Below, piece after piece: positions 24,853 through 30,616 of a stretch of 34,617 nt of DNA. The DNA comes from Oscillospiraceae bacterium (lineage in GTDB: Bacteria; Bacillota; Clostridia; Oscillospirales; Oscillospiraceae): assembly GCA_902778665.1 (NCBI GenBank), contig CACYYN010000029.1:1-34617 (forward strand), in the 5' to 3' direction. The notes beneath the pieces were generated by a model that had not been told where the DNA came from, ran no database searches, and worked only from the letters and a program-made list of their open reading frames with translations. Position numbers and translations under genes: made by a program. How positions within the stretch are numbered: position 1 is the stretch's first letter; each line of letters begins with the position of its first letter.

Positions 24853-26211
24853 TTAATTTTTCAGACTGTGCAGCGGTGCAGGGATTCTCCCGCCCCGGGC
24901 AATGAAGGCATCGCTCTTCTCCCCGTGCACCGGCATGACAGGGGCACTGCCGAGAAGCCCGCCCAGCTCAATTCTGTCACCGGCCTGCTTTCCGGGTGCC
25001 GGCAGAAGACGGACGGCAGTGGTTTTGTTATTCACCATGCCGACAGCAGCCTCATCCGCAATGATGGCGGAAATGGTCTCTGCAGGGGTGTCTCCGGGGA
25101 CGGCGATCATATCAAGCCCCACAGAGCAGACACATGTCATCGCCTCCAGCTTGTCAATGGTCAGCGTGCCGGATTCGGCGGCGGCAATCATCCCCTCATC
25201 CTCCGAAACCGGAATAAATGCGCCGGAAAGGCCGCCGACGGAAGAAGATGCCATAATCCCGCCTTTTTTTACCGCATCATTGAGCAGGGCAAGGGCTGCC
25301 GTGGTGCCATGGGTACCGCATGTCTCAAGCCCCATCTCCTCCAGAATGCGGGCGACCGAATCGCCCACGGCGGGAGTGGGTGCCAGAGACAGGTCCACAA
25401 TGCCAAAGGGCGTGTCTAATCTTCTGGAGGCCTCTGCAGCCACCAGCTGACCCATACGCGTAATGCGAAACGCCGTCTTTTTGATGGTTTCCGCCACCAC
25501 GTCAAAGGGTTCCCCCTTCACCGCCTTCAGGGCATGGTGCACAACACCCGGCCCGGAGACACCAACATTGATCACCTTTTCCGCCTCGCCCACACCGTGA
25601 AAGGCGCCTGCCATAAAGGGGTTATCCTCCACGGCGTTGCAGAAGACCACCAGCTTTGCACAGCCGATGGCATCCCGGTCGGCAGTTTTCTCCGCCGCTT
25701 CTTTGATCACCCGCCCCAGAAGAGCAACCGCATCCATGTTGATGCCTGCCTTTGTGGAGCCCACATTCACCGAAGAACAGACCAGATCCGTCACCGAGAG
25801 AGCCTCCGGGATGGCGTGAATCAGCTTCCGGTCGGCTTCCGTCATGCCCTTTTGCACCAGGGCAGAATAGCCGCCGATAAAGTTCACACCGCATTCCTTT
25901 GCAGCTTCATCCAGAGCCCGGGCAAAAGGTACGTAATCCTCCGTGTCCGAAGCCCCCGCTACCAATGCCATAGGGGTGACGGAAATACGCTTGTTCACAA
26001 TCGGGATGCCGAACTCTGTCTCAATCTCCTCACAGGTGCTGACAAGGGAAGAGGCCATCCGGCAGATTTTATCATAAATCTTGCTGCAGGCCTTTTCCGG
26101 ATTCTCATCACAGCAGGAGAGCAGCGAGATCCCCATGGTGACGGTACGGATATCCAGATGCTGCTGGTCAATCATTTCAATGGTGGAAAGTATATCCCTC
26201 TGATTCATCAT
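24853..26211 (-). CDS. UPF0210 (DUF711, 'PFL family') protein
   Basis: A 452-residue protein of the UPF0210/DUF711 family, full length for the group. Family stretches include [17 protein letters not shown] near residues 20-36, then [27 protein letters not shown] and a C-terminal Gly-rich VAVPGDT/IIADE region. The biochemical role is unknown; 'PFL' refers to a distant pyruvate formate-lyase-like fold. It starts 11 bp after the stop of the ACT-domain gene. This pair is conserved across many Firmicutes and Archaea, suggesting a shared, possibly amino-acid-regulated task. ATG 26211 gives MMNQRDIL. Confidence 0.9.
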
Positions 26212-26222
26212 GGTCTGTCACC

Positions 26223-26492
26223 TCAGATGGTATGCATGGCGTTGAAAATCTCTTCCCGCTGGATGCGTATGGTGAGCTCCATCTCCCGCCCCAGCTCTGC
26301 CAGCGCATCGCGCACTTCTGCAAAGGAGACCGTGGCCTCTGACACATCCACTGCCATAATCATGGTGAACTTGCCCTGCATAATGGTCTGGGAGATGTCC
26401 AGCACGTTGATGTTCATCTCCGCCAGTTTGATGCAGACCGCTGCAATGATGCCTACACGGTCTTTGCCGATAACCGTCACAATTGCGTTCAT
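26223..26492 (-). CDS. ACT-domain protein UPF0237
   Basis: An 89-residue stand-alone ACT domain (UPF0237). Residues 1-20 form the beta-alpha motif AIVTVIGKDRVGIIAAV, then NINVLDISQTIMQGKF and MIMAVDVSEA. ACT domains usually bind amino acids or similar small ligands. AAGGAG fits the ATG at 26492; a GTG two codons upstream is less well spaced. It is first in a two-gene operon with UPF0210 and may be its regulatory partner; this is an inference from conserved pairing. Confidence 0.92.
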   Translation of the reverse strand: MNAIVTVIGKDRVGIIAAVCIKLAEMNINVLDISQTIMQGKFTMIMAVDVSEATVSFAEVRDALAELGREMELTIRIQREEIFNAMHTI

Positions 26493-26534
26493 TTGCACTT
26501 CTCCTTATATTCAGTCAGATTTTTCCGGGAAGCC

Positions 26535-26707: not shown

Positions 26708-27376
26708 ATGAAAACGAAAAGAAAGGAAATCGCAGTTCTGCTGATTCTGGTGCTGACGCTGTCCATCCTCGGCAGCTGCAGCCTCGGCGGAACCACGCCT
26801 GCACCTACACCGGAACCGACCCCGGAGCCTACCCCTGAACCGACACCGGAACCCACACCCGAGCCGACCCCGGAACCGACCCCGGAACCGACTCCGGAAC
26901 CCACACCCGAACCCACACCTGAGCCCACACCCGAACCGACCCCGGAACCCACGCCGGAGCCTACTCCCGAACCCACGCCCGAACCGACCCCGGAACCCAC
27001 GCCGGAGCCTGAAGGCCTGCCCATCATCACCAAGAACCCTACGGATGAAATTGTCCAGGTCGGCGGTTCCTGTTACTTCCTGGCCCGCTATGAAGAGGCC
27101 ACCATCGCCGTCTGGCACATGATCTCTCCCGACGGAAGGGACATCACCTACGAAGAGGCGCAGGAGGAGTTCCCCACGGTGGAGATCTACAACGGGATGT
27201 ACAGCAACTTCCTGCTCAAGAACATTCCGCTGGAGCTGAACGGCTGGAGAGTCTACTGCCGCTACAGCAATCAGGTGGGTTATCGCGACACCGAAACCGC
27301 CCTGCTGACGGTTCTGGAGAGTGCCGAAGCCGTACAGGAAGCTCAGGCTGCTGCCCAGGCTGCAACGGAAGGCTGA
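26708..27376 (+). CDS. Lipoprotein with TPEP repeat stalk and Ig-like domain
   Basis: A 222-residue surface lipoprotein. The signal peptide ends in lipobox ILGSC with the lipidated Cys24. Residues 34-101 are 17 perfect Thr-Pro-Glu-Pro units, a rigid extended wall-spanning stalk. Residues about 102-205 resemble an immunoglobulin fold: GGSC (Cys122), VWHM (Trp136) and WRVYC (Cys184) are at the usual positions for the core disulfide and tryptophan. An Ala/Gln/Glu-rich tail follows. GGAGG precedes ATG 26708. The cell-surface placement is well supported; ligand or adhesion function is unknown. It is monocistronic, with its own promoter and terminator. Confidence 0.85.
26807..27010 (+). repeat. Seventeen 12-bp units encoding TPEP
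   Basis: Exactly 17 in-frame 12-bp units encode Thr-Pro-Glu-Pro. Third-codon positions vary between units (ACC/ACA/ACT/ACG, CCG/CCC/CCT, GAA/GAG), so the repeat is degenerate at the DNA level but uniform in protein. That argues for selection on the peptide rather than very recent slippage. Confidence 0.95.
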
Positions 27377-27485: not shown

Positions 27486-28808
27486 TCAGTCCAAGTCTCC
27501 GGCGGGAGAGAGATGGGAACAGATATTGCCGGAGATCACATCGCTCATATGCCGGTAGGCTTCGATCTCTTCGTCACTGAGACCGGCATAGGCGACGGAT
27601 GCATAGTCCTGCTCCATACGGAGGAGATCCTCCCGCATATCGTCAGCCCGGAAGACATAGGGTTCATTCAGCACCTTCTCCGGGAAGGAACCCTGCTGTG
27701 ATACATATCCCCGCACCAGAAGGCGGGCAAGGGATGCACCCACCGTGAGCCGTGAAAGGCCGGTTACGGATGCAAGATATTCTGCAGCGGCCGGCTCCCC
27801 CAGCTTCTCCATGATGTAGAGAAGGAGCACATCATCCCGCTCCAGCCGGTATTTTTTGGCAAGAGAATCCAGATAGAAGCGAAAGAGCTGAATGGTGAGA
27901 TAGCTGCTCTGAAGAGGCGAACGGCTCAGGGCATTGCCGGGCAGCGGTGTGACACCGGTTTCGGTGCCCAGCTTTTTCGTGCCCGGCAGGAACGGCAGGG
28001 CCAGGCTGTCTCTCCCGAGGGCAAAGAGAAAGCTGTAGATTGCCGGAAGGCGCTGTTCATATTCACCGGCATCAAACGTGCTTTTATAGAAATTATCATA
28101 ATGGCCGATGACGTTTGCCTTCATCTTCACGGTGCTGCTGAGATTGAAGCTCTGGTCAAGCAGAGAGCCCTTGGTGTATTCATAGTAATAAACCGGCGCC
28201 TTGAGAACCGCAATATGCCCGACATGCAGGAGATACTGCAGGTTGAAAATCATATCCTCACTGTAGCGGATGGATTCATCCATCCGGATGGAATAACGCT
28301 CAATGATCTCACGCCGGTAGAGCTTATTCCACAGCACGCCGTAATAGAGATCCGCCGGGCTGAACAGCATTTTATCCGCATACTCTTTGATGGTAAGAAC
28401 ATCGCTTTTTTCAATAGAGCCCTTCTGGGAGACATTCTGGTCGACCACACGGTAGAAATCACCGATGACAAGCTGAACGGGATTTGCCTCCATCTCACGG
28501 ACAAGGAGCTTGGTGGAATCCATGGGGAGCCAGTCATCCACGTCGGAAAAACGGATATACGTACCCGTGGCCTCCTCGAAGGCCCGGTTGCGGGCAGAGG
28601 ACACACCGCCGTTTTCTTTATGGATGGCTTTGACCCGGTTATCCAGCCGGGCGTACTCCTCCATGATGGACAGAGAACCGTCACGGCTGCCGTCATCCAC
28701 CAGTATCACCTCCAGATCGGGATAGTCCTGATGGAGAATGCTCTCCACACACCGGCGAAGACGGCTCTCGCCGTTATAAACCGGCACAATGATACTGACC
28801 TTTTCCAT
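27486..28808 (-). CDS. Family 2 glycosyltransferase with C-terminal MarR-like winged helix
   Basis: A 440-residue protein. Residues 1-215 are a GT-A family 2 glycosyltransferase: SIIVPVYNGESRL, VILVDDGSRDGS (Asp38/39), ENGGVSSARN and the metal-binding FSDVDDW (Asp89/91/92). A linker of about 90 residues follows. Residues about 304-435 resemble a MarR winged helix: LFRFYLDSLAKKYRL, DDVLLLYIMEKLGEPAAAEY, a helix-turn-helix ASVTGLSRLTVGASLARLLV, a wing region, and GLSDEEIEAYRHMSDVISGN, which matches the usual closing helix of MarR proteins. There is no membrane segment. A fused glycosyltransferase and DNA-binding domain is unusual. The winged helix could instead be a structural or protein-binding module. 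AAGGAG precedes ATG 28808. Confidence 0.8.
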   Translation of the reverse strand: MEKVSIIVPVYNGESRLRRCVESILHQDYPDLEVILVDDGSRDGSLSIMEEYARLDNRVKAIHKENGGVSSARNRAFEEATGTYIRFSDVDDWLPMDSTKLLVREMEANPVQLVIGDFYRVVDQNVSQKGSIEKSDVLTIKEYADKMLFSPADLYYGVLWNKLYRREIIERYSIRMDESIRYSEDMIFNLQYLLHVGHIAVLKAPVYYYEYTKGSLLDQSFNLSSTVKMKANVIGHYDNFYKSTFDAGEYEQRLPAIYSFLFALGRDSLALPFLPGTKKLGTETGVTPLPGNALSRSPLQSSYLTIQLFRFYLDSLAKKYRLERDDVLLLYIMEKLGEPAAAEYLASVTGLSRLTVGASLARLLVRGYVSQQGSFPEKVLNEPYVFRADDMREDLLRMEQDYASVAYAGLSDEEIEAYRHMSDVISGNICSHLSPAGDLD

Positions 28809-28837: not shown

Positions 28838-28865
28838 ATTATAGCACGAATTCGGCTGTTTTCAA
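28838..28865 (-). promoter_or_regulatory. Promoter of the glycosyltransferase gene
   Basis: On the minus strand TTGAAA (28860-28865), a 16-bp spacer and TATAAT (28838-28843). Confidence 0.65.
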
Positions 28866-28904: not shown

Positions 28905-28935
28905 AATTGACTTTTATCAATTGTTATGATAGAAT
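28905..28935 (+). promoter_or_regulatory. Promoter of kamA with overlapping inverted repeat
   Basis: TTGACT (28907-28912), a 17-bp spacer and TAGAAT (28930-28935). An inverted repeat, AATTGA (28905-28910) and TCAATT (28917-28922), overlaps the -35 box and could be an operator. Confidence 0.55.
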
Positions 28936-28981: not shown

Positions 28982-30088
28982 ATGAACTGGCAGACGTTTT
29001 TACAGAATAACCTTACCACAGCAGAGGATCTTCGCAGCCCGCTGAAGCTGACGGATGAGGAATATGAAAACATCCGGCAGGAAATTGCCTGCTACCCCAT
29101 GTCGGTGACGAAGTATTACTTCTCGCTGATTAACCCCGATGACCCCGACGACCCGATCCGCAAGCTGGCCATCCCCACCGGGAGCACCATCCTCCCCGAT
29201 GGAGAGCTTGACACCAGCGGTGAGGCAGGCAACACGATGCTGCAGGGCATGCAGCACAAATATGCCGAGACGGTGCTGATTCTCACCACGGCGGACTGTG
29301 CCATGTTCTGCAGGCACTGCTTTCGCAGACGGCTGGTGGGCAAATCGGATGAGGAAATCGCGGTGGATATTGACGCCATTGCAGAATATATCCGGGCACA
29401 CCCGTCCATCAACAATGTGCTTTTAAGCGGCGGAGATTCCTTTCTCCTGCCGACAGAGGAGATTGCCGACTGGCTCAGGAAGCTTGCAGCACTCCCTCAG
29501 CTGGATTTTATCCGCTTCGGCACCAGGACGCCTGTCACCTTCCCCCAGCGGATTCTGGGTGATTATGCGCTTCTGGAGCTGCTGGGTTCCTACCGACAGC
29601 AAAAGCAGCTGTATGTGGTGACGCACTTCAACCATCCGAGAGAGATTACACCGGAGTCACAGGCGGCTGTGCGGGCACTGCGGGGTGCGGGCATCATAGT
29701 AAAAAACCAGACGGTGCTTCTGCGAGGCATCAATGACGATCCGGAGGTGCTCGCCGAGCTGCTGCGAAAGATCACTTCCATCGGTGTGGTGCAGCACTAT
29801 ATCTTCCAGTGCAGGCCGGTGAAGGGGGTGAAGAGCCAATTCCAGGTGCCTATCGTCCAAGGGAGCGACATTGTGCACAAAGCGCTGGCAAAGCAGAACG
29901 GACTCGGCAAAAGTGCAGACTACACCATGTCCCATATAAAGGGAAAGATCCGTATCCTGGGACGGAATCAAAACGGCGAGATGATCTTCCAGTTCAGGCA
30001 GGCGAAAAATGCGGAAAACATCGGCCGTATCTTCTCCCGGAAGCTTGACGGGACGGAAACCTGGCTGCCGGATGATTTTGAAATCTGA
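28982..30088 (+). CDS. KamA-family radical SAM protein (lysine 2,3-aminomutase-like)
   Basis: A 368-residue radical SAM enzyme. The CxxxCxxC cluster motif is CAMFCRHC (Cys106, Cys110, Cys113), followed by FRRRLVG. LLSGGDSFLL, RFGTRTPVTFP, THFNHPREIT and NQTVLLRGIND are typical of KamA and EpmB relatives. The C-terminal MSHIKGKIRILG contains the lysine usually proposed to hold PLP. It is shorter than clostridial lysine 2,3-aminomutase (about 416 residues) and close in size to EpmB. Likely reaction: PLP-dependent 1,2-amino-group migration, or EF-P lysine modification; the substrate is unassigned. AAAGGAG precedes ATG 28982. A MarR gene follows. Confidence 0.88.
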   Translation: MNWQTFLQNNLTTAEDLRSPLKLTDEEYENIRQEIACYPMSVTKYYFSLINPDDPDDPIRKLAIPTGSTILPDGELDTSGEAGNTMLQGMQHKYAETVLILTTADCAMFCRHCFRRRLVGKSDEEIAVDIDAIAEYIRAHPSINNVLLSGGDSFLLPTEEIADWLRKLAALPQLDFIRFGTRTPVTFPQRILGDYALLELLGSYRQQKQLYVVTHFNHPREITPESQAAVRALRGAGIIVKNQTVLLRGINDDPEVLAELLRKITSIGVVQHYIFQCRPVKGVKSQFQVPIVQGSDIVHKALAKQNGLGKSADYTMSHIKGKIRILGRNQNGEMIFQFRQAKNAENIGRIFSRKLDGTETWLPDDFEI

Positions 30089-30114
30089 ATTTTCCGACCT
30101 GACATTCTTTTCTG

Positions 30115-30144
30115 TTGACTTCAACTGAAAAACGGTTGTATAAT
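30115..30144 (+). promoter_or_regulatory. Promoter of the marR gene with likely operator
   Basis: TTGACT (30115-30120), an 18-bp spacer and TATAAT (30139-30144). The spacer holds an inverted repeat, CAACTG...CGGTTG (30122-30138), and GTTGA/TCAAC pairing (30114-30125) covers the -35 box. These are suitable MarR-type half-sites for autorepression. Confidence 0.65.
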
Positions 30145-30175
30145 CATTCGCAGAATATTCACGGAGGCGATGGGG

Positions 30176-30616
30176 ATGGAGGCAGAAGCGGAGAGAGAGC
30201 TGGAGAGCTCCTTTCTGCCGGCGTATGCACTGGTAAGAAGCATTCTTTATTCCGACTACGGCAGAAAAAACGCACGCTACACCAAAACCCAGATTGCGGT
30301 GCTGGCTGTACTTTACTGGAAGAAGGAAATGTGCATGTCGGAACTGGCGGAGCTCATCTCTGTGCCCAGAGAACAGATGACACGTGCGGTGGTTCCTCTT
30401 GTTGATGACGTTCTGGTGGAGCGCTATTCCGACGAAATCAACCGCAAACGTGTTCACGTCTGCCTCACAGACGCAGGGCAGGAATATATTCGCACCTATC
30501 TGCACAGCCATCTGGATATTCTGCGGGAAAAACTCAGTGCGGAGGAATCCGCCCGGCTGACAGAAGCGGTGAAGACCATTGTGGATATTCTCCGTGACCT
30601 GCGAAGCCGTCAGTAA
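30176..30616 (+). CDS. MarR family transcriptional regulator
   Basis: A 146-residue winged-helix regulator. The DNA-binding core is at about residues 30-105: YTKTQIAVLAVLYWKKEM, MSELAELISVPREQMTRAV (helix-turn-helix) and a wing with DEINRKRVHVCLTDAG. Dimerisation helices flank it. The ATG at 30176 is 8 bp after GGAGG; an ATG at 30170 is too close. Inverted repeats over its own promoter suggest autorepression. It lies 82 bp after the kamA-like gene and 15 bp before a small membrane protein gene. The inducer is unknown. Confidence 0.92.
   Translation: MEAEAERELESSFLPAYALVRSILYSDYGRKNARYTKTQIAVLAVLYWKKEMCMSELAELISVPREQMTRAVVPLVDDVLVERYSDEINRKRVHVCLTDAGQEYIRTYLHSHLDILREKLSAEESARLTEAVKTIVDILRDLRSRQ

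Follow-up and report, generated by a model that had tools for sequence, protein, structure and literature searches.

Why would a sugar-transferring enzyme carry the fold of a transcriptional regulator on the same chain? The question is raised by one gene in a 34,617-nucleotide stretch of DNA from an Oscillospiraceae bacterium (GenBank assembly GCA_902778665.1, contig CACYYN010000029.1, positions 1 to 34,617; the whole stretch is called the window here). A first-pass annotation had read this gene as a family 2 glycosyltransferase (GT) core at residues 1-215 followed by a MarR-like segment at residues 304-435. Sequence comparisons and structure models indicate that the pairing of a GT with a MarR-type winged helix in one chain is real and common to related bacteria, and that the protein is a soluble, apparently active GT-A family 2 enzyme with a complete C-terminal MarR-type winged-helix domain. 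The frame is exactly the one proposed, and the strand, which that annotation had left out, is the minus strand. The parts of the gene are as follows.

27486..28808, minus strand: GT2-MarR fusion gene, ATG at 28808, stop at 27486, 440 aa, an open frame without internal stop
28293..28796, minus strand: family 2 GT domain PF00535, residues 5-172 (Pfam match, conserved motifs, GT-A structure neighbours)
28020..28292, minus strand: remaining conserved GT portion, residues 173-263, with two closing helices, 223-244 and 247-263 (model and alignment); the short relatives L085-L091 stop shortly beyond it
27936..28016, minus strand: linker, residues 265-291, little conserved; predicted local distance difference test score (pLDDT) below 50 in the model
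27510..27917, minus strand: predicted complete MarR-fold domain, residues 298-433 (full model and tail-only model), with modelled helices 298-320, 324-336, 342-349 and 353-365, a wing, and helices 389-406 and 412-433
27714..27752, minus strand: recognition helix, residues 353-365; position 357, Ser/Thr in stand-alone MarRs, is Gly here
27645..27713, minus strand: wing region, residues 366-388, which lacks the Asp-x(0,1)-Arg motif
28838..28865, minus strand: promoter-like site, TTGAAA-16-TATAAT, 11 of 12 positions, TG before the -10, 29 bases ahead of the start codon (consensus scan only)

Architecture of the fused protein

The GT core that the first-pass annotation had described is borne out by a PF00535 match (136.2 bits against a cut-off of 23.3, E 1.4e-39) that spans profile positions 1-167 of 168 and is the top-scoring of 10 such matches in this genome, with GT sequence conservation running on to about residue 262. 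Across the 43 distinct full-length fusions described below, D39, D89, D91, D92, W160, N161, K162, E184 and D185 are identical in every member, while at residue 38 Asp is found in 35 members and Asn in the other 8. We take D38/D39, D89, D91, D92, E184 and D185 to be the acidic nucleotide- and metal-binding and catalytic residues of this enzyme family; with these residues intact, the enzyme looks active. The whole model has GT-A enzymes as its structure neighbours, foremost 5hea, TarS and TarP. By hydropathy, which was the only measure applied, the window protein shows no evident transmembrane stretch (top 19-residue mean, 1.28; up to 1.92 among the fusions).

The tail's resemblance to MarR proteins is not due to chance at the family level, as judged by profile searches. 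In the window protein itself the MarR_2 match is weak (residues 328-372, E 0.0083, 16.7 bits against a cut-off of 27), and scanning its last 140 residues alone gives an E value of 0.0016, which is still below the Pfam cut-off. MarR_2 matches 18 of 23 family members at E ≤1, the best at 5.4e-9, and the homologue from Oliverpabstia intestinalis (locus L080) stands above the same cut-off with 36.5 bits. A profile built from 23 tails also picks out MarR chains among PDB sequences (3nrv, E 3.3e-7). We also used a profile made from MarR-type genes of relatives with the fusions excluded, and it matched 38 of the 43 fusions at E ≤0.02, including the window copy at 0.003, with the other five at 0.021 to 1.2. 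Reversed tails gave a best E value of 0.26 in this test, a control that the tails of L068, L069 and L082 fail to beat.

Modelled alone, the tail reaches a pLDDT of 91.4, and MarR structures head the neighbour lists of both structure searches. The predicted fold, with winged helix and dimer helices, occupies residues 298-433, close to the span first proposed. A purely helical bundle, which the first-pass annotation had named as the finding that would overturn its reading, is excluded, as the models show two strands and a wing between the helices, in the MarR order. None of the Pfam and NCBIfam models listed for the members (25 of 42 and 25 of 55 families listed) spans both halves. The two domains are known, and their conserved pairing was not found named in the literature: no description of a GT2-MarR fusion was found among titles and abstract openings of open-access PubMed Central (PMC) articles.

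Distribution and ancestry

Within the genus, 4 of 36 other genomes carry a full-length fusion with 57-62% identity to the window protein, and a fifth has a copy split in two frames. Within the family, a search with the tail at E 0.001 matched 23 of 400 genomes, of which 17 have open frames of at least 437 aa and 2 are cut by a contig end; the other 4 matches are stand-alone MarR-like genes with frames of 149-197 aa. A scan of named genomes, which covers the best 80 loci, placed full-length copies in metagenome-assembled genomes (MAGs) labelled Ruminococcaceae, Oscillospiraceae, Lachnospiraceae, Erysipelotrichaceae, Solobacterium, Christensenella, Acetatifactor and Spirochaetales; one isolate among these 80 loci, Oliverpabstia intestinalis, has a full-length copy. 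Wider profile searches (E 1e-70, no more than 4 candidates per genome) gave few matches. Besides the window, the class-wide search of 391 genomes yielded one match of fusion length (G729, a 475-aa frame) and four in shorter frames, and the phylum-wide search of 398 genomes yielded one match, in a 327-aa frame.

Deduplication of 56 full-length rows left 43 distinct fusions. Other proteins with this domain order, a search for which was suggested in the first-pass annotation, thus occur across several bacterial groups. By tree, they form the window's clade (20 members), an Erysipelotrichaceae-type clade (8), an Oliverpabstia/Acetatifactor clade, hereafter the Oliverpabstia clade (14), and one spirochaete MAG. 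Members of the Oliverpabstia clade come mostly from the window's own family, and the label Lachnospiraceae there rests on Oliverpabstia and Acetatifactor only. The first-pass annotation had also allowed that an assembly frameshift might have joined two separate genes, and the split copy in one genome of the genus (L021 5341-6626 / L079) could be taken to point that way. Intact full-length copies in many separately assembled genomes exclude a frameshift or mis-join, the split copy has an intact near-copy (L053), and we give an artifact essentially no credence.

The ancestry of the fusion was read from quick trees. The GT-part tree holds 80 rows, after 28 of the first 108 were removed (five fragments, three near-duplicates and 20 outgroup rows, mostly long-branched), and L044 was relabelled as a fusion. 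On this tree the 42 fusions require two state changes. Eight short forms (L085-L092, about 270-295 aa, without the MarR tail and ending near the linker start) are nested in a branch holding 15 fusions, with a Shimodaira-Hasegawa-like approximate likelihood ratio test (SH-aLRT) value of 98. One gain of the tail and one later loss are the simplest reading of a tree that has SH-aLRT support only, a midpoint root and several weak deep forks. The fusion is old, and its ancestry is shared.

Role of the MarR-type tail

We compared the tails of the 43 fusions with 33 stand-alone MarRs, 27 of them chosen by MarR_2 score from relatives, five found via the fusion tail and one being the window's own; three of 36 control candidates (L136, L151 and L155) had been excluded for frames longer than 240 aa. 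The Ser/Thr of the recognition helix and the Asp-x-Arg motif of the wing are features with which MarRs typically contact DNA. Position 357 is Ser/Thr in 32 of 33 controls and Gly in the window protein; 14 of the 20 proteins in the window's clade have Ile/Val/Leu there, and 7 of the 8 in the Erysipelotrichaceae-type clade have Ala/Leu. The wing motif in its loose form, D-x(0,1)-R, occurs in 25 of 33 controls versus 7 of 43 fusions and is absent from the window protein. Position 358 is hydrophobic in 0.80 of the window's clade, 1.00 of the Erysipelotrichaceae type and 0.71 of the Oliverpabstia clade versus 0.24 of the controls, and position 364 in 1.00, 0.75 and 0.21, respectively, versus 0.27. 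Basic residues are also fewer in the fusions (6.88 versus 8.36 in controls; P = 0.002), and for pairs at 25-80% identity, the relative conservation ratio of the helix-turn-helix is 1.26 in controls and 0.93 in fusions. The Oliverpabstia clade keeps more DNA-binding-like features than the window's clade: 9 of 14 members have Ser/Thr at 357, 12 of 14 have Arg/Lys at 353, the wings are often basic, four of the seven fusions with the wing motif belong there, and the L080 protein has a net charge of +6 and a DRR wing.

From these comparisons and the models, we see an even chance that the tail in the window's clade no longer reads DNA and is a dimerising, protein-docking module, mostly for an upstream GtrA partner in relatives, with a role in envelope glycans. 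In the window's clade the MarR domain would probably serve for contacts between proteins: the dimer helices (298-320 and 389-433) would pair two enzyme chains, and the re-surfaced, hydrophobic recognition helix would dock a protein partner. In most relatives of the window's and Erysipelotrichaceae-type clades, that partner would probably be the product of the gene directly upstream, a small membrane protein of the GtrA family. Of the 20 fusions in the window's clade, 16 are preceded by a gtrA-like frame that either stops no more than about 30 bases from their start or runs slightly into them, and so are all 8 of the Erysipelotrichaceae type (24 of 28 together); both GtrA proteins compared with PF04138, one per clade, exceed its cut-off. 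No such frame lies upstream in the spirochaete fusion or in the 14 members of the Oliverpabstia clade, where 12 of the 14 loci cover only about 830 upstream bases. Working on the inner side of the membrane, the enzyme may make a sugar donor or a glycan, which would then be exported to decorate the cell envelope; by inference from known systems, envelope glycosylation of the type that combines a GT-A enzyme with GtrA is the most likely pathway.

Several observations weigh against this docking role. The 27 of 33 controls picked by MarR_2 score lean towards canonical MarRs, five others were found with the fusion's own tail, and the rows inside a clade are related, so that the counts are not independent events. 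As position 358 is hydrophobic in most of the Oliverpabstia clade too, it does not separate the clades by itself. Net charge does not differ from that of the controls, either over the helix-turn-helix and wing (1.79 versus 1.42; P = 0.55) or over the recognition helix (1.86 versus 1.18; P = 0.11). Among close pairs, the ratio of nonsynonymous to synonymous substitution rates (dN/dS) is 0.11 for the helix-turn-helix and wing versus 0.22 for helices 389-433, in a set of 51 pairs of 15 sequences that come nearly all from the window's clade; the better-kept surface must therefore still do something, and this could be DNA binding. The window gene has no adjacent gtrA, nor do L060, L067 and L077; the window's genome has two PF04138 genes elsewhere, which are candidate GtrA-family members, and the gtrA frame beside L005/L025/L054 was counted even though it is cut short. 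For the window's clade, a surface that is retained while its chemistry shifts to hydrophobic speaks in favour of a protein partner.

The first-pass annotation had offered two roles for the tail, a link from surface-glycan synthesis to transcription or a winged helix put to a use other than DNA binding. The second fits the window's clade better, given the worn DNA-contact residues of its recognition helix and wing, while the first is unsupported there, with those residues mostly lost, and is possible above all in the Oliverpabstia clade. In its fullest form the first role would make the protein a trigger enzyme: the MarR domain would sit on an operator, and a sugar nucleotide or acceptor in the GT site would decide whether the protein represses envelope-glycan genes, its own among them. 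The full predicted MarR fold with its dimer helices, the features kept in the Oliverpabstia clade and the well-kept helix-turn-helix of close pairs speak for this possibility, as does GmaR of Listeria, in which a GT and a transcription function share one chain according to the part of the source drawn on here (PMC9638930). The loss of most typical DNA-contact residues in the window's and Erysipelotrichaceae-type clades speaks against it, and so does the operator search. At 29 loci we scanned a stretch of at most 200 bases ahead of the gene, or ahead of the aligned gtrA start, for palindromes (exact arms of at least 6, spacer of at most 8), with 200 first-order random sequences per locus as a control. 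No palindrome common to the upstream stretches of the 29 loci was seen, a result with little bearing on the Oliverpabstia clade, since only 2 of its 14 members (L078 and L080) were included. At six loci (L050, L058, L063, L067, L074 and L077) the best repeat was reached by at most 2 of 200 random sequences, and other repeats were not unusual; the six differ in sequence, except that those of L067 and L077 are alike. A repeat in the window, AATTGA-N6-TCAATT, is at chance level, being matched by 63 of 200 random sequences. On balance we regard a trigger enzyme as unlikely. It is similarly a tentative suggestion that the fused MarR of the Oliverpabstia intestinalis clade (L080) binds DNA under control of the enzyme's substrate or product, and that the window's clade later turned it to protein docking.

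Some of these repeats have features of their own. The window repeat, at 28905-28922, covers the -35 of a site that resembles a promoter for the divergent radical SAM gene at 28982-30088. At L058 a T-rich stretch comes after the repeat, as in a terminator. L067 and L077 have similar long inverted repeats (arms of 14 and 12; GGCAGAAAGA ... TCTTTCTGCC), at most 200 bases upstream of the fusion and between it and an iron-sulfur protein gene; reached by 0 of 200 random sequences, they may be terminators or control sites.

A docking surface might instead receive the substrate. The winged helix could bind a peptide or protein acceptor and present it to the GT, as the recognition elements (RREs) of ribosomally synthesized and post-translationally modified peptides (RiPPs) do. 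With its hydrophobic recognition helix the domain would be well suited to a protein ligand, and RREs, which are winged helices too, appear fused to PF00535 glycosyltransferases in the portion of a recent survey used here (PMC12710340). We nevertheless think this role doubtful: the RRE order given there is strand-strand-strand-helix-helix-helix, whereas the tail has the MarR order with two long C-terminal helices, and no RiPP-like gene was noticed in neighbourhoods read by eye, with no search aimed at RiPP genes. Decay, in which the tail would be the remnant of an old fusion and have no role today, is very improbable. The tail does evolve faster than the GT part (median dN/dS in close pairs, 0.16 versus 0.08), and the nested short-form clade lost it, but a median of 0.16, retention across several bacterial groups and a high-confidence model all argue against decay.

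Neighbouring genes and known systems

In the window the fusion gene stands by itself, flanked by a lipoprotein gene and the divergent radical SAM gene. The lipoprotein-like gene (26708-27376, plus strand, 222 aa) has in its middle a Pro-Glu-Pro-Thr repeat, with a 12-base unit in 18.3 copies at 26788-27006, followed by a non-repeated C-terminal part. At 24853-26498, minus strand, the gene of an ACT-domain protein (26223-26498) adjoins that of a DUF711 protein (24853-26211). The true MarR gene that the first-pass annotation had placed 1.4 kb away is indeed present at 30170-30616 on the plus strand, 1.36 kb from the fusion start (PF01047, 25.6 bits against 24.6). When the genes closest to the fusion at 10 other loci were read by eye, not with a profile, no MarR gene was noticed, and nothing was found that ties the neighbouring MarR to the fusion. 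Just ahead of it, a perfect inverted repeat, GTTGA-CT-TCAAC (30114-30125), occurs once in the window (expected, 0.02) and overlaps the -35 of a promoter-like site at 30115-30144; it is a candidate autoregulatory site of that MarR. In Oliverpabstia intestinalis (L080 8169-12534), the fusion gene lies directly between lepA and a hemW-like gene, and no glycan gene was noticed among the six neighbours inspected. In the stretches covered, none of the other fusions among the 43 adjoins lepA, and a hemW-like gene adjoins only L033 and L035, again with the short upstream coverage of 12 of the 14 loci of that clade.

The conserved architecture couples a probable envelope-sugar enzyme to a regulator fold, and its natural series of a tail-less short form, a DNA-binding-like tail and a tail with a re-surfaced helix would show a DNA-binding fold recruited by an enzyme. 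Since a cultured gut isolate carries one member, the question is testable; if the Oliverpabstia tail does keep DNA binding, glycan synthesis would be linked directly to transcription, with the supply of envelope sugar read by the enzyme itself.

Among known systems, MarR regulators (PF12802, PF01047) have the fold that is predicted in full for the tail, with its DNA-binding half as well as its dimer helices. Unlike the fusion, in which the fold stands behind an enzyme, they are stand-alone proteins, and the window's clade mostly lacks their recognition-helix Ser/Thr and wing Asp-Arg motif. With GT-A family 2 enzymes (PF00535; nearest solved, 5hea [GalT1/CgT], TarS and TarP), the protein shares catalytic domain, motifs and fold; its best sequence match to 5hea is confined to the GT part (residues 2-214), and the MarR fold behind the GT is a feature of the window protein. 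Envelope glycosylation systems described in the sections of PMC8035078 used here bring a GT-A and a GT-C enzyme together with a flippase of the GtrA type. CsbB/GtcA/YfhO and GacI-GacJ are alike in joining a GT-A enzyme with a small membrane protein, and in GacI-GacJ the GT and the membrane part are separate proteins; a soluble GT that has a separate membrane protein is described there as well. Those sections mention no MarR-like tail, and the window GT has no transmembrane helix evident by hydropathy. RREs fused to enzymes, PF00535 glycosyltransferases included, offer a winged helix that binds protein rather than DNA, although, in the part of PMC12710340 cited above, their order of secondary structure differs from the MarR order of the fusion tail. 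GmaR of Listeria monocytogenes has a similar layout, with an N-terminal GT and a C-terminal part acting in transcription; as described in the same part of PMC9638930, that C-terminal part consists of TPR, linker and anti-repressor domains that bind the repressor MogR, whereas the fusion instead ends in a predicted MarR fold.
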